This document shows positions 12,730 to 45,394 of a stretch of 64,000 nt of DNA, in pieces; position 1 is the first letter of the stretch; every line of letters begins with the position of its first letter. Source of the stretch: Terriglobia bacterium (GTDB lineage Bacteria > Acidobacteriota > Terriglobia > Terriglobales > Acidobacteriaceae); NCBI GenBank assembly GCA_020072815.1, contig JAIQGE010000006.1, forward strand, positions 248,001-312,000, given 5' to 3'. The translations under genes and the position numbers were made by a program. The notes beneath the pieces are model-generated. The model did not search any database, was not told the DNA's origin, and was given only the letters and a program-made list of their open reading frames with translations.

Positions 12730-12779
12730 CCCTGTTGGGCTACAATCTCCCCAAACGGGTCTGGTTTGGAGGCCGCAGC

Positions 12780-13124
12780 ATGACGCATTCGCCACTCGAA
12801 AAGCGTTCCATGAAGAGGTTTTCTCTGGATTTGCCGATCAGCGTCAAGTACTTGGACAACACCCGCAGCGAGGTTGCCGGCCGCACTCGCGACGTAAGCT
12901 CCCGCGGGATCTACATGTTCGTTGCCGCCCCCATGGCCCAGGGAGCGGCCATTGAGTTTGTGATGACCTTGCCTTCGGAAATCACCTTGACGGAGCCCGT
13001 CCGCGTGCACTGCCGCGGCCGCATCCTGCGGGTAGAGCAGACAGCCCCGGAGCAAGGAGCAGCGGTGGCGCAAGGCGTAGCCGTGGCCATTGATAAGTAC
13101 GACTTTGTCGGCGACGACGTTTAA
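12780..13124 (+). CDS. Single-domain PilZ protein
   Basis: 114 residues, made up of one PilZ domain, the common c-di-GMP receptor fold. KRSMKRFSLDLPISVKY contains the N-terminal Arg-rich strand, and RDVSSRGIYMFV carries the second half of the binding motif (DxSxxG). The beta strands FVMTLPSEI, VRVHCRGRILRVE and VAVAIDKYDF complete the barrel. The start at ATG 12780 has TTTGGAGG seven bases upstream; the longer open frame from 12735 has no such site. The first Arg motif is only partly conserved (RSMKR instead of RRxxR), so ligand binding should not be assumed. Two other PilZ domains in the window are fused to transcription factors. Confidence 0.88.
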   Translation: MTHSPLEKRSMKRFSLDLPISVKYLDNTRSEVAGRTRDVSSRGIYMFVAAPMAQGAAIEFVMTLPSEITLTEPVRVHCRGRILRVEQTAPEQGAAVAQGVAVAIDKYDFVGDDV

Positions 13125-34094: not shown

Positions 34095-35411
34095 CTATTC
34101 CCCGCCCAGCTCCCAGCCATCCTTTTTCATTTCTGCGTGCAGCCAGCGTTGCAGCGTGGTGCGCAGCGGAGCGGGCATCTCGTTGAACTGGACGCCGTGC
34201 TGGCCTTGCTTGTTGGTCCAGGTAACGCGTCCCGCGATTTCCGTTTCTGCCTTGGCCCCGGGGATCATGAAACGCAAGCAAACCGGTGAGCCGGACTTGA
34301 AGGCCCGTTCCGTTTTCACTCCGGCGCCGCCCAGGCTCAGGTTGAGCAGCGTTCCGGCAAATTCTTCGCCGGAATAGCGGACGCGCGCCGGCAATTCCAC
34401 GTTGGCGCGATAGTACAGCTGCTGGCTCAAACTCAGCGTGCCGGCGGGCGCCTCGACGCCCGATTCGCGATAGGTCTTCAACTTGCGCAGCAATGTCCGG
34501 CGCGAAATGCCCAGCGCCTCGGCGGCTTTGCCCTGGTTGCCGGCGTTCTTGTCCAGCGCCTGAAAGATCGCCTGGCGCTCCATCTCGTCCAAGCCGCCAC
34601 TGGAGGAGTGCTCGTCGTCGTGGGGCAAGGCCTGCGGCAGGTTGAGATCGTCCGCGGTGATTTCCGTAGCCGCGTTGGCTGACTGCAATACCGCGCGAAA
34701 GACGATGTTGCGCAGTTCGCGCACATTGCCTGGCCAGGGATAGGTGACCAGGGCCTCCACGGCGTCGGGCGTGAAGCGGGCCTCCGGGTAATGCTCATGC
34801 AGTACCTGTTCGGCGATGCCCAGCACGTCCTCCGGACGGTCGCGCAGCGCGGGCACGTCCAACTGAAACTGCGCCAGACGATGGTACAGGTCGCCGCGAA
34901 AGCGCCCGGCGCGCACCAGGTCCTCCAGATCGCGGTTGGTGGCGGCCACCACGCGCACGTCCACGCTGACTTTTTTGCTGCCGCCCAGCCGGAAGTACGG
35001 TGCGCCGTCCAGCACGCGCAGCAATTTTGCCTGGACTTTCATGTCCAGGTCGCCGATTTCGTCCAGGAAGAGCGTGCCCTTGTCGGCCAGCTCAAAGAAG
35101 CCCGGCTTGAGCGAATCGGCACCGCTGAACGCGCCTTTCTCGTAGCCGAAGAGCTCGCTTTCCACCAGGTGTTCGGGTATGGCGGAGCAATTCACCTCCA
35201 CCATGGCGTGGTTGCAGCGCAAAGAGTGGTGGTGAATGGCCTGCGCGATCATCTCCTTGCCGGTGCCGGTCTCGCCGACGATCAACACGGCCGCGGGATG
35301 GCGCGCAACTTTCTCCGCCAGCCGGATCACTCGCTTCAGTGATTCGCTGCGCACGATGAGTTTGCCGGTGTCGGCTTGGTTGGTCGTGGTCAGATGCTTG
35401 TCCTGGAACAC
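34095..35411 (-). CDS. Sigma54 activator fused to a PilZ domain
   Basis: 438 residues. No receiver domain is present; the protein begins directly with an AAA+ domain (about residues 17-245): Walker A GETGTGKE (46-53), a GAFTGA-type loop reading GAFSGA (93-98), Walker B LFLDE (114-118). A Fis-type helix-turn-helix follows (QGKAAEALGISRRTLLRKL, near residues 302-320). C-terminal residues 340-430 form a PilZ domain: YYRANVELPARVRYSGEEF, NLSLGGAGVKT, GRVTWTNKQGQHGVQF. The design suggests that c-di-GMP changes activator action, but the Arg motif (YYRANV) is degenerate. Serine in GAFSGA occurs in some activators. The DNA target is unknown. Confidence 0.92.
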   Translation of the reverse strand: MFQDKHLTTTNQADTGKLIVRSESLKRVIRLAEKVARHPAAVLIVGETGTGKEMIAQAIHHHSLRCNHAMVEVNCSAIPEHLVESELFGYEKGAFSGADSLKPGFFELADKGTLFLDEIGDLDMKVQAKLLRVLDGAPYFRLGGSKKVSVDVRVVAATNRDLEDLVRAGRFRGDLYHRLAQFQLDVPALRDRPEDVLGIAEQVLHEHYPEARFTPDAVEALVTYPWPGNVRELRNIVFRAVLQSANAATEITADDLNLPQALPHDDEHSSSGGLDEMERQAIFQALDKNAGNQGKAAEALGISRRTLLRKLKTYRESGVEAPAGTLSLSQQLYYRANVELPARVRYSGEEFAGTLLNLSLGGAGVKTERAFKSGSPVCLRFMIPGAKAETEIAGRVTWTNKQGQHGVQFNEMPAPLRTTLQRWLHAEMKKDGWELGGE

Positions 35412-37832: not shown

Positions 37833-37866
37833 TCGATAGAGGCAGTTTTATTTCGAAGTAATCGTG

Positions 37867-37898
37867 CCGCACCGGTTTTCTCGCCGGTGCGGTTTTTT
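37867..37898 (+). terminator. Intrinsic terminator after the M13 peptidase gene
   Basis: ccgcaccgg (37867-37875) pairs with ccggtgcgg (37884-37892), an 8-nt loop, then TTTTTT. A clear rho-independent terminator 35 bp after the stop. Confidence 0.9.
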
Positions 37899-38187
37899 CT
37901 TGCGCCACCGTACCGGCACGCTCGCCTTACTCATGGCACTAAGTGTTTCCGCTTCGAAACCGCAATGCTTTGCACTTCAAGACGCGCAAAAAATGCAGCC
38001 GTAACTCCAAATTATTAAGTCATCGTCAGTTTCAATCTGGGCTTCCGCGAACTGAATTCCTAAGACTTTTCAAATCTTAATGAAAGTTTGTGCCGCGCTG
38101 CGGGATCAAGACCAGCCAGTGCCGGAGAAGGAGTGTCTTGAGACAACAAACAAACGGGTAAACAAGATTCAAAAGGAGCGCAGCCAA
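37899..38187. other. Leader region of the multicopper oxidase gene
   Basis: About 290 bp after the terminator. The frame of the oxidase is open from 38080, but those codons have no ribosome binding site and I treat them as leader. The chosen start at 38188 has AAAAGGAG at 38171-38178. No other gene or repeat was found. Confidence 0.5.
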
Positions 38188-40428
38188 ATGAATCGTAAGA
38201 ACGGAAATTCTGATGTCTTCTTCTTGCCACAGAACGCGTCGCGAGCACGCATCAAGGAAGCGGAAAACGCCCGCAAGAATCGAGCAGAAATCGTGAAAGC
38301 CTTCTCGCACGGGCAGGTGACTCGTCGAGATCTGATCAAGTGGGGATTGATCACAACGGCAGGAGCGCTGGCCCCCATTCACGGATTGAATCCCTTCATC
38401 AAGAGCGCGTATGCCGATGATGGGGGCATCCCCACGGGCGCGCCGCCGAGCCCGCTGTTTGGCGCGCAGCCATTCACGCAGCCGATGCCGCGCTTTGATG
38501 TGCTGCCGCGCAATCCCGTGGCGTCACTGAATCCCGCTCCAACCGCGCAGGCCAACCAGACGCAGCAGCCGGTTCCGGCGATCCTCGGCGGCGGAACTGG
38601 TCCCATTGAAGGCCGCCCTCCTGGACCAATCTGGGCGCACCAGTCATTTGCCACGTTGCCGCCGCAAGCCGCTGTAGAAGTCACACAGGAAGGGGCGAAG
38701 GTCAACTTTGTTTACAGCCCCGGCGTGCCTTCGAACTTGAACTCCGGGATTGACCCGACGCAGCCGTTCCATCCGCGCTTTCACCCCAACCTGCCGGACC
38801 AGGGGCCGCTGGCGCTGTGGACTTTCAACGGCACCTTGCCGCCCAAGTTGATTCAAGTGAAGTACGGCGACCCTATTCTGTTCCGCGAACACAACCTGCT
38901 TCCGGCGGACGTGACGCAAAATGGTGGTTTCGGGCGGAACACGATTTCCACTCACGAGCACAACGGCCATCATGGGGCCGAGAACGACGGTTTTACCGGG
39001 GCGTATTTCTTTCCCGGCCAGTTTTACGACTATCACTATCCCGTGGTGCTGGCGGGCCGCAACAGCATCAACGTGAATGCCACTGATCCCCGTGCCGGCG
39101 CACCCGATGGCAGCGGCGGCATCACCAAAGTCCCCGGTGATTGGCGTGAGACCATGAGCACGCACTGGTTCCATGACCACATGTTCAGCTTCACCTCGCA
39201 GAACGTGTACAAAGGCATTGCCGGGATGTTCAACATTTACAGCGCTCTTGATCGCGGCAATGAAGCCATCAATGACGGCGTCAACCTGCGTTTGCCCAGC
39301 GGCACCGCCAACGACTTTGGCAATCTGGACTATGACATCAACCTGATGCTGGCCGATAAAGCCTGGGACCAACACGGCCAGCTCTTCTTTGACATCTTCA
39401 ACTTCGACGGTTTTCTGGGCGACGTGATGACCGTGAACCTGGTCTTCAAGCCGTTCTTTGAAGTCGAGCGCCGCAAGTACCGATTCCGTATCCTCAATGC
39501 CGCAGTCTCGCGGTTCTTCCAGCTTCAGCTCAGTGACAACTCCACCATGATCCAGATTGCCAATGACGGCAACCTGCTGCCCACGGTGGCGCCGCAGACC
39601 CGGCTTGACCAACTGGGCATCGCCGAACGGTATGACATTGTCATTGACTTCTCCCGTTACAACGTCGGCGACAAAGTATGGATGGTCAACGTGCTGGCGC
39701 ATGAGAACGGGGCCATTCCCGCCGGGGCGGTTTCGCTTTCGACGGCGCTGGCCGGGAATTCATCCGATCCTTGTGTCGGCAAGTTCCTGGAGTTCCGCAT
39801 TGTGCGCAACCCAGCCACACCTGATGTCAGCCAGGTAGCAACGAACCTGATTCCCAACCCCGATCTTAGCAATGTTCCGATGAGCGCCACGCGGACGTTT
39901 GTCTTCGGTGACAGCGCCGACCAGACGTCCAGAAATCCCATCACCGCGTTCCGCGGCCCCTGGGGCATCGGAACCGACGGTGGCGACAAACTCAATGCGG
40001 ACTTCGGCCGGGTCTCAGCGGCGCCAAAATTCGGCACCCGCGAAATCTGGACCCTGGTCAACGATGGCGGTGAGTGGGACCACCCGGTCCACATTCACTT
40101 TGAAGAAGGCCAGATCCTGGCCCGCAACGGCAGTTCCAAGAATGTGCCGCTGTGGGAAAAAGGCCGCAAAGACGTGTATCGTCTCCGGCCCGACGGCAGC
40201 GTGACTCTCACCATGCAGTTCCGTGATTTTGGCGGCATGTACATGGAGCACTGCCACAACACCGTGCATGAAGACAACGCCATGCTGTTGCGCTGGGAGA
40301 TTGATAACGGAGGCGCGCCGTTTGTGGTGCCTCTGCCAACGCCCATTCCAACGCCGCAAGGCGTTACGTTCATTCCGCCGGACGAGGTCCTGAGGACCGC
40401 GTTTACCGGAGGCAACGGCGGTAGCTAA
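38188..40428 (+). CDS. Tat-type multicopper oxidase
   Basis: 746 residues. A twin-arginine signal (VTRRDLIKWGLITTAGAL, Arg46-Arg47) follows an unusually long polar head of about 45 residues. The four copper-binding motifs are intact: HEHNGHHG (about residues 257-263), HWFHDHM (about 325-331), HPVHIHFEEG (about 632-640) and HCHNTVHEDNAM (about 687-698). The last contains the T1 His-Cys-His and the axial position occupied by Met. Multicopper oxidases reduce O2 to water while oxidising metals or organics; substrates such as Mn(II), Cu(I), Fe(II) or phenols cannot be told from sequence. The SCO-cytochrome c gene begins 131 bp downstream and may help deliver copper or electrons. Confidence 0.94.
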   Translation: MNRKNGNSDVFFLPQNASRARIKEAENARKNRAEIVKAFSHGQVTRRDLIKWGLITTAGALAPIHGLNPFIKSAYADDGGIPTGAPPSPLFGAQPFTQPMPRFDVLPRNPVASLNPAPTAQANQTQQPVPAILGGGTGPIEGRPPGPIWAHQSFATLPPQAAVEVTQEGAKVNFVYSPGVPSNLNSGIDPTQPFHPRFHPNLPDQGPLALWTFNGTLPPKLIQVKYGDPILFREHNLLPADVTQNGGFGRNTISTHEHNGHHGAENDGFTGAYFFPGQFYDYHYPVVLAGRNSINVNATDPRAGAPDGSGGITKVPGDWRETMSTHWFHDHMFSFTSQNVYKGIAGMFNIYSALDRGNEAINDGVNLRLPSGTANDFGNLDYDINLMLADKAWDQHGQLFFDIFNFDGFLGDVMTVNLVFKPFFEVERRKYRFRILNAAVSRFFQLQLSDNSTMIQIANDGNLLPTVAPQTRLDQLGIAERYDIVIDFSRYNVGDKVWMVNVLAHENGAIPAGAVSLSTALAGNSSDPCVGKFLEFRIVRNPATPDVSQVATNLIPNPDLSNVPMSATRTFVFGDSADQTSRNPITAFRGPWGIGTDGGDKLNADFGRVSAAPKFGTREIWTLVNDGGEWDHPVHIHFEEGQILARNGSSKNVPLWEKGRKDVYRLRPDGSVTLTMQFRDFGGMYMEHCHNTVHEDNAMLLRWEIDNGGAPFVVPLPTPIPTPQGVTFIPPDEVLRTAFTGGNGGS

Positions 40429-40559
40429 CTCAAAACGAACTGGCGGAGCCGCTGCTCTTGAGTGCCATCGCGTTCCGATGGCAGCGCGTGGCGGCCCGCC
40501 GGCTCCATCGTCGCGGAACATCTGCGCACAAGACACGGTGCGAAGGGGGCATTCGTCAA

Positions 40560-41555
40560 ATGCTTCGCAGGAATTCGATCATAGGCACTGTTGTGGTCAT
40601 CGCCATGGCGATGTGGGGCGCCGTTCTGCCCGCCGCAGCGCTCGACAACTCCCGCTGGGGAGCAAACTATTTTCCCAACGTAGAACTCATTACCCAGGAC
40701 GGCAACACCGTCCACTTTTATAACGACTTGATCCGCGGCAAGATGGTGGTGATTGATCTGATCTATACCCACTGCGTGGACGCCTGCCCGCTGGAGACCG
40801 CCCGTCTGGCGCAGGTGCAGCGTATGCTGGGCGACCGCGTCGGCAAAGACATTTTCTTTTATTCCATCACCATCGACCCCAAGCGCGATACACCCCAAGT
40901 GCTGAAGGAATACGCGGAGAAGTACCACGCCGGCCCCGGCTGGCTCTTTCTCACTGGCAAAACGGCCGACATCGAACTCATCAGCAAGAAGCTAGGGCTC
41001 TACTCCAATCCCAACAGCAGCCGCGACGGCCACACGCCCGCCGTCCTTCTGGGAAATGAGGCGACCGGCCAGTGGATGCGGAACTCGGCCACCGACAACC
41101 CGCGGTTTTTGGCCATCATGATCGGTGACTGGCTGAACAGCTGGAAGAATGCCAAGCCGCAAACCGCGGAAACAAATTATGCGCAGGCCACGCCGCTGGT
41201 GATCCAGGACCAGGGGCAGTACATTTTCTCCACGCACTGCGCGGCCTGCCACAGCATCGGCCAAGGCGACAAGATTGGCCCGGACCTGCTGGGCGTGGCC
41301 ACTCTCCGCGAGCGCGGCTGGCTCATGCGCTTCATCCAGACTCCCGACAAAATGCTGGCGGAGAACGACCCCATCGCGGTGGAGTTGTTTGCCAGGTATA
41401 AGCAGGTGAACATGCCCAACTTGCGCCTGGGCGAATCCGAATCGGCGGTCTTGATCAAGTTCATTGCTGCGCGAACCGCGGAAATCCAGCAAGAACGACC
41501 AGCCAGTGGGAAACCGTCAACGAATAAAACCGAACCCGCTGTGAGCAACCAGTAA
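40560..41555 (+). CDS. SCO1/SenC-cytochrome c fusion protein
   Basis: 331 residues. A signal-anchor (SIIGTVVVIAMAMWGAVLPAAA) leads to an SCO domain (about residues 40-195) with copper-binding THCVDACP (Cys71, Cys75) and the third ligand His157 in RDGHTPAV. A cytochrome c domain follows (about residues 210-310) with CAACH (227-231) and a likely axial Met284 (VNMPNLRLG). SCO proteins insert copper into cytochrome oxidase CuA, and the c-type heme could supply electrons for copper or disulfide reduction. The frame is open upstream to 40458; ATG 40560 is preferred because GGGGG lies upstream, at a long 12-base spacing. The tail is Thr/Lys-rich. It follows the multicopper oxidase on the same strand. 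Confidence 0.9.
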   Translation: MLRRNSIIGTVVVIAMAMWGAVLPAAALDNSRWGANYFPNVELITQDGNTVHFYNDLIRGKMVVIDLIYTHCVDACPLETARLAQVQRMLGDRVGKDIFFYSITIDPKRDTPQVLKEYAEKYHAGPGWLFLTGKTADIELISKKLGLYSNPNSSRDGHTPAVLLGNEATGQWMRNSATDNPRFLAIMIGDWLNSWKNAKPQTAETNYAQATPLVIQDQGQYIFSTHCAACHSIGQGDKIGPDLLGVATLRERGWLMRFIQTPDKMLAENDPIAVELFARYKQVNMPNLRLGESESAVLIKFIAARTAEIQQERPASGKPSTNKTEPAVSNQ

Positions 41556-41563
41556 ACCCTCCA

Positions 41564-42430
41564 TCAGCTTTCCGCGCCGCCCTTTGGTCCGCGCCACGGC
41601 GGCAAAGTATCCAGCCGCAGCAACTGCTTCCGCATGAGCCGGCGGGCCCGATGCAGCCGCGTGTGCGCGGTGTCCAATTTGATCCCCAGCCGCGCCGCCA
41701 CGTCGGGCATGCGCAGATGGTGGAGCTCGCGCAGCACGAACACCTGGCGGTACATCTCATCCAGCGCGTCCAGCGCCGTCTCCAAGGTTTGGTGAAACTC
41801 CTTGCGCTCCAGCGCTTGCGCTGGAGATTCTCCAGGGTGGGCAAATTGTTCAATGAAATCTTCCGGGCCCTCATGCTGCGGGCCTGGCGGCACCGAATGA
41901 AGATACTTGCGGTTTTTGCGGACGCATTTGAGGGCCTCATTGGTGGCGATCTGCAACAGCCACGCCTTGAAGCTCTGCCCGGGATGAAACTGTTCCGCGT
42001 GGGACAGCACTTTCAACAGTGATTCCTGCAGCACCTCTTCCGCGTCCGCTTGGTTGCGCAGGATGGAACGGACCGTATTGCGCAAACTCCGCATATAAGG
42101 AGAAACCAGCTGCAGCAGAGATTCGCCGTCTCCGGCTTGCAGGTTGCGGACCAGCAATACTTCTTCGCGCTGGAACCCAGTCTCTATTCCACCGGAAATT
42201 TCCCGCGACCACACAGGATGGACCTTGATGGCCTGATCGCGATAGAGAAGCATTACGGGATGCCCCGGCGCAAGCGCAGGCGGCCCGTGCCGTATGCGAA
42301 ATCCGCAGGCGCTGACGTCCATCAACTGCCCCGCCATCTTAAGTTCAAGATGGTCCACCGAAAGAACAACACTTGCGCAGACAGCCTGGCGTACCTCCGC
42401 CCTGCTGTCTGGGCTGGCACCCGGAGTCAT
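41564..42430 (-). CDS. ECF-type sigma factor with N-terminal PilZ domain
   Basis: 288 residues. Residues 12-95 form a PilZ-type barrel: VRQAVCASVVLSVDHLEL, then MDVSACGFRIRHGPP (DxSxxG, residues 38-43) and PVWSREISGGIETGFQ. Residues about 104-175 make sigma region 2 (LLQLVSPYMRSLRNTVRSILRN, ADAEEVLQESLLKVL, FKAWLLQIATNEAL) and about 220-275 region 4 (ALDALDEMYRQVFVLRELHHLRMPDVAARLGI). This arrangement suggests that c-di-GMP or another ligand controls a sigma factor directly. No anti-sigma factor gene is adjacent, which is unusual for ECF sigma factors. The convergent SCO-cytochrome c gene ends only eight bases away. Confidence 0.9.
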   Translation of the reverse strand: MTPGASPDSRAEVRQAVCASVVLSVDHLELKMAGQLMDVSACGFRIRHGPPALAPGHPVMLLYRDQAIKVHPVWSREISGGIETGFQREEVLLVRNLQAGDGESLLQLVSPYMRSLRNTVRSILRNQADAEEVLQESLLKVLSHAEQFHPGQSFKAWLLQIATNEALKCVRKNRKYLHSVPPGPQHEGPEDFIEQFAHPGESPAQALERKEFHQTLETALDALDEMYRQVFVLRELHHLRMPDVAARLGIKLDTAHTRLHRARRLMRKQLLRLDTLPPWRGPKGGAES

Positions 42431-42910
42431 ACCAACCTCTCATGACAGTTAAGCGAATTCGAAGTTTTTGTCTGCCGTTGGTGGCTGTAGATCCGTCAGG
42501 GGTGCTGACAGCCGCGAACGGAAACTTGCTTCCCGATCACAGCCTTGCAGCAGTCGATCCAGGAAATACGGCCCCGCCAACACGGGCGCCGCTGCTTTTT
42601 GTTGCCGGGCATTTTACCCGCAAACCTTGCTTCCCGTGCCTGTTTTTGTGCAAAAGTTTGCAGCTTGCGTGCCCGGTTCGACTTGCCTAGTGGTTGATTG
42701 TTGCCCACCGAAGTAACCCGGCGAAAGCACTTAGAAGGCTAATCGCTTAGCATTTTCAACAGATTACAGACTCTATCCTCGCCGCCTCAGCGGCCTTCCG
42801 GATGGGCTTACTTAAGTCACCTGTCCCCTCTATCACCAGGGTGCTATAAACGCCACCATAGCTAGTTTTCCGGAAGGGGACAGAAATTCCCCCTTTGAGA
42901 GTGTGCAGGT
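42431..42910. other. Divergent region, no gene seen
   Basis: 480 bp between the divergent starts of the sigma factor and the HEAT-repeat gene. Open frames of 70-105 codons exist in several frames but have no family resemblance and mutually overlap. I found no terminator, tRNA or convincing riboswitch here. Confidence 0.4.
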
Positions 42911-45394
42911 ATGATGGATTCTAAACAGTCGAAGCTTTTGAGCATACGGTTTGCCCGGTCTTTGCAGACGCTCATCAAGATGGTCAACATGTTTTCCGCC
43001 GACCATAAGAGCGCGGCTGGCTTGTTGCATCGGAGTTATGAATTTCTCAATCCGTTGCTCAAGCAGTCGAAGTGTCTGACGCTGGGATTTATTGACCAGC
43101 GCGTTCTCCTCAATAACATCCTCACCAACGAAGAAGGCCTCAAGCCGCTGGAAAATGAATTCCTGCGCCGGGGCATCGGTGCTGTCACGTTTGAGGCCGG
43201 TATTACCCTGGCTGCGTATCGCGCCGGCATCGCCACTATTGGGGCGAATCCCAAGGCGATTGAGGAGGCCGGCGGGCTGGGTCCGTTCCTGGAGACAAAG
43301 CAGCTCGATTTCGTGCGGATCTTCCCGGCGCTGAAAACCGAAGCGCGCAACCAGGATGGCGACACGGTCCTGGACATCGGCTCCGAGGAGTATCTGATCT
43401 CCAAGGCGCTTTCCAGCATGAACTCCGGGTTCTCGCAAGGCATTGAAACCATGCTTACGCGCATGGAAGCAGGCGTTGCTGCGGGAGGTGCTGGCGGCGC
43501 CGGAACTGGCGGCGGCACGGGCAGTGGTACGGGCAGTGGCTCGGGAGCGACAGGCGGCAACGGATTTGGCGGCGGAAGCGGCGGCTACGTCGCCGTCAGC
43601 AGCGTATTGGGCGCCGGTGGCGGCGGTGGCGGTGGCACTGCCCACGGTACCGGCGGTGGCGGAGGCATCGGCAACGGCTTCTTGACCGGCGGCAATGGCA
43701 GCGGCCACGGCTCCGGTTCGGGTGGCTCCGGCGGAAGCGGCGTTGGCAGTGGTCCTCTCATGGACATCCAGCGCATGGTTGAGCAGAAATTTGAATCCTC
43801 GCTGCGGAATCCTGAAGAAGACCCGGAAAAGGCCTACGTGGAACTGGGCAGGATGCTGAGCGGAATCCGTCCCGACCTGGTGCTCTCGAATCTGGCCGGC
43901 AAGGGCTTGCAGGATTCGGACCAGAAAAAAGATGACGTGACGGCTGAAGTCTTTGAAGATACCGCTTTGCGCTGGGCGTTGCGCCGCCTGGCCGCGGTGC
44001 CCGCCGGCGACGACGCTGTGGTGGTGCAAGAGCAGGTTTTCCGCGTGCTCATGCGCAGCTTGCAGGCCACGCATACAGCTTCCCGGCTGGCGACAAAGCT
44101 GGCCGAGCTGGCCAAACAGTATGCGCTGCCCAAGGAAACATACGCCCGCATTCAGGATGAGATTCGCTGGCTCTCGCTCTCGGCCACGCAGAAGCTCCGC
44201 GAGTTGCTGGGCATCACGCATTTCACTCCTTCCGAATTTCGCCGCGCGCTGGACTTGATCAAGGAACTGATCCGCTTGGGCAAGCCAGAGGACGCTGCCG
44301 CCATCGGCATCCAGTATCTTTCCGTGATGGAAGAACATCTTGCGCTGCGGATTGACGACGTGGCGCGCGTTCCCGAATTGCTGCGCGCGCTGGCCGGCGT
44401 TCAGGGCGAATTCTGGACTGCCGCAACCGACACGCTGGTGAACGCCATGGCCTGCCGCAAAGTCAATCAACTGGTCCACCTGCAGATCTGCAATGCGTTG
44501 ATCGCGCTGGCCAGGATTGGCGCAACCTATGAGGACTTTGAGCTGGTGCGGCGCGTCGGCAGTTCGCTGGAAGAAAGCATTGCCACCGACCACGCGGCGC
44601 ACGTGGCCTGTTGTCAGGCGGCGCTCGCCAACATTCTGCTGCCCTCCGCGGTGGACCGTATTGCTGAAATTTTCCTGGAGAGGAAAACCGATTCTGCCTG
44701 GCTCAAAAACGTGTCCTCGCTCTTGCGCTGGTCCGGCGTTGAAGCCACCGAGCGCCTGTTTGTCCGGCTGGACAATGAACAGGCCGCTTCGCAGCGATTG
44801 GCGCTCATCCGCTTGCTCTCCCGCTTGGGGACGGCGGCCCTGCAGGCCGCGCGGCAACGGCTGCAGCGTCCGGAATGGTACGTGGTCCGCAACGCCTGCA
44901 AGATCCTGGGCGACCTCAAAGATCCCGAACTGCTGCAGCACATCCCGGCAGCATTTGCGCACAAGGATGAGCGCGTACAAAAGGCCGCGTTGCAGGCGGT
45001 AATTGAAAGCCGCATGCCCCGGCGCGCCGTGGTGCTGGCTGAAGCTTTGCCGCTGCTTCCGCCCGCGCTGGTGGAAGACGCTCTCCTGGACCTGATGTAT
45101 GAAGCATCGCCGGAGAGCTTGCCTGGCCTGGAGCGCTGCTACAGCCTGCCCATGCCGGTCAACGTGCTGGCCCGCATCGTCAGCGTGGTTGCCGCGGTCC
45201 AGCACCAGGACGCCATCTTCGTTCTGGCCGGCATTGTCCGCAACGAAAAACTGCCTCAGATGGTCCGCGACACCGCGTCGCAGGCCATGGAGTTCCGAAC
45301 CTCCAAGAAAGGGCAGAAAACAGCGCAACTGATTTCCACCTCCAAGGAAGCCGCGGAACTGGTGGTCCAGAAATTCGTGCTCCGCGGAGCCTAG
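42911..45394 (+). CDS. HEAT-repeat protein with Gly-rich linker
   Basis: 827 residues without signal peptide. The N-terminal domain (1-185) contains MVNMFSADHKSAAGLLHRSYEFL and LTLGFIDQRVLLNNILTNEEG; I recall similar N-terminal regions in delta-proteobacterial and acidobacterial HEAT proteins, with unknown function. A glycine-rich low-complexity linker spans about residues 186-282. The C-terminal 500 residues are alpha-helical, with HEAT-like repeats from about residue 620 (ASQRLALIRLLSRLGTAALQAAR, EWYVVRNACKILGDLKDPELLQH). HEAT repeats form curved scaffolds for protein binding. Start ATG 42911 or 42914 is set only by reading frame. Nearby genes on the other strand are an exporter and the PilZ-sigma factor. 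Confidence 0.85.
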   Translation: MMDSKQSKLLSIRFARSLQTLIKMVNMFSADHKSAAGLLHRSYEFLNPLLKQSKCLTLGFIDQRVLLNNILTNEEGLKPLENEFLRRGIGAVTFEAGITLAAYRAGIATIGANPKAIEEAGGLGPFLETKQLDFVRIFPALKTEARNQDGDTVLDIGSEEYLISKALSSMNSGFSQGIETMLTRMEAGVAAGGAGGAGTGGGTGSGTGSGSGATGGNGFGGGSGGYVAVSSVLGAGGGGGGGTAHGTGGGGGIGNGFLTGGNGSGHGSGSGGSGGSGVGSGPLMDIQRMVEQKFESSLRNPEEDPEKAYVELGRMLSGIRPDLVLSNLAGKGLQDSDQKKDDVTAEVFEDTALRWALRRLAAVPAGDDAVVVQEQVFRVLMRSLQATHTASRLATKLAELAKQYALPKETYARIQDEIRWLSLSATQKLRELLGITHFTPSEFRRALDLIKELIRLGKPEDAAAIGIQYLSVMEEHLALRIDDVARVPELLRALAGVQGEFWTAATDTLVNAMACRKVNQLVHLQICNALIALARIGATYEDFELVRRVGSSLEESIATDHAAHVACCQAALANILLPSAVDRIAEIFLERKTDSAWLKNVSSLLRWSGVEATERLFVRLDNEQAASQRLALIRLLSRLGTAALQAARQRLQRPEWYVVRNACKILGDLKDPELLQHIPAAFAHKDERVQKAALQAVIESRMPRRAVVLAEALPLLPPALVEDALLDLMYEASPESLPGLERCYSLPMPVNVLARIVSVVAAVQHQDAIFVLAGIVRNEKLPQMVRDTASQAMEFRTSKKGQKTAQLISTSKEAAELVVQKFVLRGA

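Follow-up and report, generated by a model that had tools for sequence, protein, structure and literature searches.

The window, the whole 64-kb stretch of DNA that was analysed, holds on its minus strand a gene for a 288-aa protein (P0001) in which an N-terminal PilZ domain precedes the two regions of an ECF sigma factor (Table 1). The gene is a single uninterrupted frame with an ATG start, and in all three of its parts G+C is lowest at codon position 2, the pattern expected of coding DNA. Its end is 8 bp from that of the convergent gene for SCO1/SenC fused to cytochrome c. On its other side lies the divergent gene for a HEAT-repeat protein, which has a long Gly/Ser-rich insert of varying length between relatives. 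With these two neighbours, the statement in the preliminary description that no anti-sigma gene is adjacent was confirmed.

Table 1. Features at and around the PilZ-ECF gene (positions in the window; aa, residues of P0001)
Feature	Position	Strand	Basis or remark
Sigma-54 activator (AAA+, Fis HTH), C-terminal PilZ without RxxxR	34095..35411	-	Pfam, motif scan, synteny
Block between M13-like peptidase and HEAT genes	37833..42910		~360 bp in congener G002
Multicopper oxidase, within block absent from G002	38080..40428	+	Pfam, synteny
SCO1/SenC-cytochrome c fusion, convergent neighbour, within block absent from G002	40458..41555	+	Pfam, synteny
PilZ-ECF sigma factor gene (P0001)	41564..42430	-	288-aa ORF and Pfam
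Sigma region 4, aa 214-265	41636..41791	-	Pfam
Sigma2-sigma4 linker without the clade's P....DWREIPSE motif, aa 193-205	41816..41854	-	Relatives' alignment
Sigma region 2, aa 108-175	41906..42109	-	Pfam
PilZ domain, aa 10-87	42170..42403	-	Weak Pfam match, homologue alignment, fold comparison
DxSxxG motif (DVSACG, aa 38-43)	42302..42319	-	Motif scan and alignment
RxxxR motif (RAEVR, aa 10-14)	42389..42403	-	Motif scan and alignment
AGAGG, ribosome-binding-site-like, just 5' of the PilZ-ECF ATG	42436..42440	-	Sequence
HEAT-repeat protein, divergent neighbour, common to congeners G002, G003, G008	42911..45394	+	Pfam, synteny

By domain content, P0001 is an ECF (group IV) sigma factor, predicted to take part in transcription with core RNA polymerase. 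Regions 2 (PF04542, E 2.3e-15) and 4 (PF08281, E 3.9e-12) are the only sigma regions present, and each is over its Pfam cut-off. Among the NCBIfam models, one for RNA polymerase sigma factors ranks first without reaching its own cut-off, and TIGR02937 (sigma70-ECF) is over cut-off. Region 2 has an acidic DAEE where the DAED motif normally sits (the role of this motif is taken from the available part of PMC8103513). In the full-length model, the sigma2 and sigma4 blocks mostly reach a pLDDT of at least 87, and the last PilZ strand (IETGF, to residue 86) passes with next to no linker into the first helix of sigma2 (residues 85-98). The frame, the Pfam sigma regions and the PilZ homology described below bear out the earlier description of an ECF sigma factor with an N-terminal PilZ domain, directly followed by regions 2 and 4.

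The N-terminal domain is called PilZ-type by homology, because its Pfam score is under the cut-off: the match to PF07238 reaches 15.7 bits (E 0.019), or 17.9 bits in a genome-wide PilZ search, against a curated cut-off of 22.5 bits. A search of 399 genomes from the class with residues 1-123 gave matches in 44 other genomes (best E 9.3e-12). The 29 non-self loci examined among the 46 non-self matches listed encode standalone PilZ-type proteins, and the two of these homologues that were tested by Pfam are both over the PilZ cut-off. The N-terminus of P0001 is thus homologous to accepted standalone PilZ proteins and aligns with them. Sixteen invariant columns were defined from 14 such homologues, with P0001 excluded. 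P0001 keeps 14 of them, including R10, E12, R14, D38, S40, G43, R45, W74, R76, G85 and F86, and has lost a Gly (19) and an Ala (70). A predicted model of residues 1-94, built on an alignment of the three PilZ sequences of the window, has seven strands and a mean pLDDT of 70.8, with residues 1-13, which hold most of RxxxR, below 50. Foldseek gave a weak best match (E 0.065) with PilZ entries leading. In a structural comparison, rows 1-11 were all PilZ or BcsA-PilZ (Z 8.0-8.9), with BcsA, MotI, VCA0042, PP4397 and PA0012 among the top matches. The model therefore shows a PilZ beta-barrel fold, which is supportive and not decisive because model confidence is moderate and some unrelated, non-PilZ barrels reach Z ~7.8. 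Altogether, the N-terminal domain of P0001 is a divergent PilZ-type domain, and the PilZ call is sound. The DxSxxG pattern that had been noticed earlier stands (DVSACG), and the boundary then given, 12-95, is replaced by 10-87.

RxxxR and DxSxxG are described as the c-di-GMP receptor motifs of PilZ domains in the accessible portion of PMC12564702. Both are found in P0001, and its PilZ domain would be expected to bind c-di-GMP through R10/R14 and D38/S40/G43. Absence of the arginine pair had been named at the outset as grounds for giving up a c-di-GMP role; checked in the sequence, R10 and R14 are present.

The sigma part points to a different ancestral mode of control. In a tree of 59 ECF pieces, P0001 is nested in a clade of 16 rows (support 100/99), as sister to a locus of the same genus (L011 in G002; support 94/82) and on a long branch (1.56). 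The named loci within the clade or beside it are from Acidobacteriota. Among the 29 family relatives examined (eight further listed matches are outside this count), a zinc-finger anti-sigma (ZAS) is directly downstream in 25, in the same orientation and at most 105 bp from the sigma stop; it is on the opposite strand in two (L015, which has an additional same-strand ZAS 1 kb away, and L194) and fused in frame to the C-terminus of the sigma factor in one, L011. A ZAS is thus adjacent or fused in 28/29. The remaining relative, L185, has neither a ZAS within the 1.4 kb examined nor a PilZ domain, so loss of the ZAS need not by itself require a replacement. In family f6, all 10 relatives examined, from a longer match list, have a ZAS. 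None of the 39 relatives (29 and 10) has a PilZ domain in front of the sigma factor, and the sole weak PilZ match among the 29 covers 21 residues well downstream of the sigma factor in L018. From its place in the tree, the sigma part of P0001 is judged to descend from this ZAS-controlled clade (L009-L023, L182-L195), with which it shares ~36-42% identity; the clade uses a ZAS, whereas P0001 carries a PilZ domain instead.

Regulator architecture varies within the clade in other ways. The sisters P0001 and L011 have two differing non-standard arrangements, and in L009 and L019 the ZAS domains carry a long fused domain at the C-terminus, which we take to resemble a MEDS-type sensor. The ZAS proteins of L012, L016, L020 and L023 have, by eye, a hydrophobic stretch and a C-terminal part bearing CxxC, and are apparently membrane-anchored.

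P0001 itself has neither an adjacent nor a fused ZAS. When the 64-kb window was scanned on both strands for the zinc-finger motif, the only two matches were chance ones antisense to other genes. The simplest reading is a regulator swap in which an ancestral ZAS would have been lost and the N-terminal PilZ domain gained; we rate this at somewhat better than even, because the ZAS of the clade is missing around P0001 while a PilZ domain is present. The earlier suggestion that the PilZ domain could be the regulator in cis is supported by this missing ZAS together with the arginine pair, as read from the sequence.

A ligand for such a receptor is probably made by the host cell, judging by the six GGDEF domains of its genome and by 20 PilZ matches besides P0001, 18 of them over cut-off. 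Of the genome's 21 PilZ matches, three fall within the 64-kb window. Besides P0001 these are a small protein (12735-13124), whose PilZ domain has RSMKR and DVSSRG, and the sigma-54 activator, which has no receiver domain. Two PilZ-controlled transcription factors had been claimed for the window, and this claim is only half borne out. The activator does have a clear C-terminal PilZ domain behind its Fis HTH (E 7e-17, Pfam), with NLSLGG; the c-di-GMP arginine pair is lacking, however, QLYYR standing in place of RxxxR. The activator belongs to the conserved core, with a syntenic copy of 82% identity in the congener G002, whereas PilZ-ECF is an accessory gene; nothing links the two.

The PilZ domain of P0001 might act otherwise than through c-di-GMP, as a protein-docking or structural module, in which case control of the sigma factor would fall to its own transcription or to a partner protein. 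Some PilZ domains bind no ligand, and the other PilZ transcription factor here, the activator, lacks RxxxR. Orphan ECFs, moreover, may be under transcriptional control alone (PMC8103513, in the portion available). This explanation is nevertheless considered unlikely, as the full motif set of RxxxR, DxSxxG, W74 and G85-F86 has been kept despite the fast divergence of P0001 as a whole.

That divergence raises a second alternative, namely a decaying or non-functional gene that lost its anti-sigma, acquired a PilZ domain by chance fusion and is drifting. Of 60 columns with one residue shared by 14 or more of 15 relatives, P0001 keeps 42; the other relatives miss 0-6, a contrast that is partly built in because the relatives define the columns. 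Seven of its 18 changes at these columns fall in residues 193-205 of the sigma2-sigma4 linker, where the P....DWREIPSE motif carried by the relatives is lost; such a loss counts in favour of the swap, as a lost anti-sigma contact would explain it, but so would drift. The 42 columns kept, the branch length of 1.56 and the occurrence of PilZ-ECF in a single genome all count against the regulator swap, and all three would also fit decay. However, the frame is intact, base composition is coding-like with its minimum at the second codon position throughout, regions 2 and 4 are still over their Pfam cut-offs and 14/16 invariant PilZ columns have been kept, which makes decay improbable.

An anti-sigma encoded elsewhere could still control P0001, for example the ZAS paired with its paralogue at C21, and crosstalk between non-cognate sigma and anti-sigma factors has been raised as a possibility (PMC8103513, as far as its available text goes). 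The profile of the clade's ZAS has two matches in the genome. Both adjoin other ECF genes of their own, leaving no unpaired ZAS of the clade type in the genome, and they score 68.6 and 29.9 bits, compared with best scores of at least 107 bits in the genomes of five relatives (G002, G004, G005, G011, G013). Four further ZAS loci of the same genus were read and lie beside ECFs without PilZ. The residues conserved in the clade that P0001 has lost also speak against control by such a protein. The searches used a zinc-finger motif and profile, and the argument covers the zinc-finger class; within it, a distant anti-sigma is very improbable.

The same fusion was looked for in other genomes, as had been proposed in the preliminary description, and no genome but this one was seen to carry it, so that recurrence lends no support. 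No second PilZ-ECF fusion was found with full-length P0001 among the best candidates per genome in 61 genomes (own included), with the same query in 180 genomes of the family (own included), with residues 1-185 in 396 genomes of the phylum, or among 10 loci examined from a long list in family f6 (full-length query, 170 genomes). In the search of the class with residues 1-123, none of the 29 loci examined of the 46 matches listed has an in-frame sigma factor behind the PilZ domain. The genome samples overlap, and rare fusions could be missed because a limited number of candidates was scored per genome. A match in G033 starting at residue 14 was rejected, because it bridges a stop codon; it has no PilZ domain and two ZAS genes downstream. 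In a plasmid collection, tblastn with P0001 gave matches in the ECF range only. The titles and opening abstract lines of the literature searched mention no PilZ-ECF fusion; a 2021 NAR paper, reportedly a reclassification of ECFs, could mention one. The word 'PilZ' is absent from the available portions of two ECF reviews (PMC8999054, PMC8103513). A fusion created by assembly error, as a single genome in 32 contigs could suggest, is hardly credible, given a listed completeness of 100% with 0.14% contamination and a seam between PilZ and sigma that lies inside one continuous frame.

The surroundings of the gene also differ within the genus. The gap between the HEAT gene and a peptidase that we take to be M13-like from its HELTHGFDDQG motif is 5.1 kb in the window, where it holds the oxidase, SCO1/cytochrome c and PilZ-ECF genes, vs ~360 bp in the congener G002, which keeps the gene order of HEAT, M13-like peptidase, PilZ-bearing sigma-54 activator and further genes. 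In G003, G008 and G019, the HEAT gene lacks the neighbours from the block in the stretches read. PilZ-ECF is thus accessory in the genus, the block being absent at the same site in G002. The oxidase and SCO1/cytochrome c genes form a two-gene module (38080-41555), whose oxidases show ~65-77% identity across several genomes of the class and Betaproteobacterial replicons; the genome itself has another multicopper oxidase copy, at C11. Eighteen other oxidase loci were examined, and 16 (all but L150 and L152) also carry SCO1-cytochrome c. The pair also occurs in other genomes and on large Betaproteobacterial replicons without PilZ-ECF, and none of the 18 loci carries PilZ-ECF, which is therefore no constant component of the oxidase/SCO1 module. 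ECF matches at two of these loci (L147, L159) are 27-28% identical, have no DxSxxG in front and were rejected as PilZ-ECF. The ECF promoter patterns tried matched at chance level and revealed no ECF-type promoter in front of PilZ-ECF or its neighbours, nor a promoter shared by PilZ-ECF and the oxidase module.

Under the regulator swap, control could operate within one protein. The PilZ domain would bind c-di-GMP via R10/R14 and D38/S40/G43, binding would turn it against sigma2, and the turn would expose or hide the sigma2 surface that docks on RNA polymerase. Such a ligand-driven turn would be felt by sigma2 because there is almost no linker between them. As to direction, the ligand-free PilZ domain may hold the sigma factor off and c-di-GMP may release it, to which we lean only weakly, since the few extensions studied in other ECFs hold the sigma factor inactive when ligand is absent (PMC8103513 and PMC8999054, in their available portions). 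The binding of c-di-GMP, the direction of its effect and the regulon of P0001 are what we infer. The chances appear about even that P0001 is a sigma70-family factor with a built-in c-di-GMP receptor, setting the promoter choice of RNA polymerase within one polypeptide.

Parts of this proposal have counterparts in known systems. MrkH (PDB 5kec/5kgo, among the fold matches of the PilZ model) has, like P0001, a PilZ domain in a transcription factor, but it is an activator and not a sigma factor, and WhiG is a sigma factor that is not an ECF. In RsiG-WhiG, c-di-GMP directly controls a sigma factor, as proposed here, through a separate coiled-coil anti-sigma with the motif E(X)3S(X)2R(X)3Q(X)3D and without PilZ, in contrast with the fused PilZ domain of P0001 (PMC8325347, in the part available). 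A PilZ-PrsW protease fusion in Leptospira likewise grafts PilZ onto ECF/anti-sigma control, by a proposed action of the protease on the anti-sigma, whereas in P0001 the PilZ domain is on the sigma factor itself (PMC12943098, from its accessible text). It is well established that some ECFs carry regulatory extensions and have no anti-sigma (PMC8103513, PMC8999054, in the sections available). P0001 resembles them in having sigma2 and sigma4 with a fused extra domain and no zinc-finger anti-sigma gene nearby; their extensions take the place of the missing anti-sigma and are thought to bind a ligand or partner, as is proposed for its PilZ domain. The extensions studied, as far as those sections describe them, are C-terminal and none is PilZ, unlike the N-terminal PilZ domain of P0001. 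Known already are ECF extensions and a sigma factor under c-di-GMP via RsiG; a PilZ domain fused to an ECF appears to be new.

N-terminal ECF extensions, described for groups from Planctomycetes, were a class without mechanistic information as of 2021, according to the available part of a review of that year (PMC8103513), and P0001 has an extension of this class. If the proposal is true, a receptor fused to a sigma factor would be the shortest route from c-di-GMP to RNA polymerase. Together with its ZAS-bearing sister genes, P0001 would offer a natural before/after pair for the study of a sigma factor changing its master.
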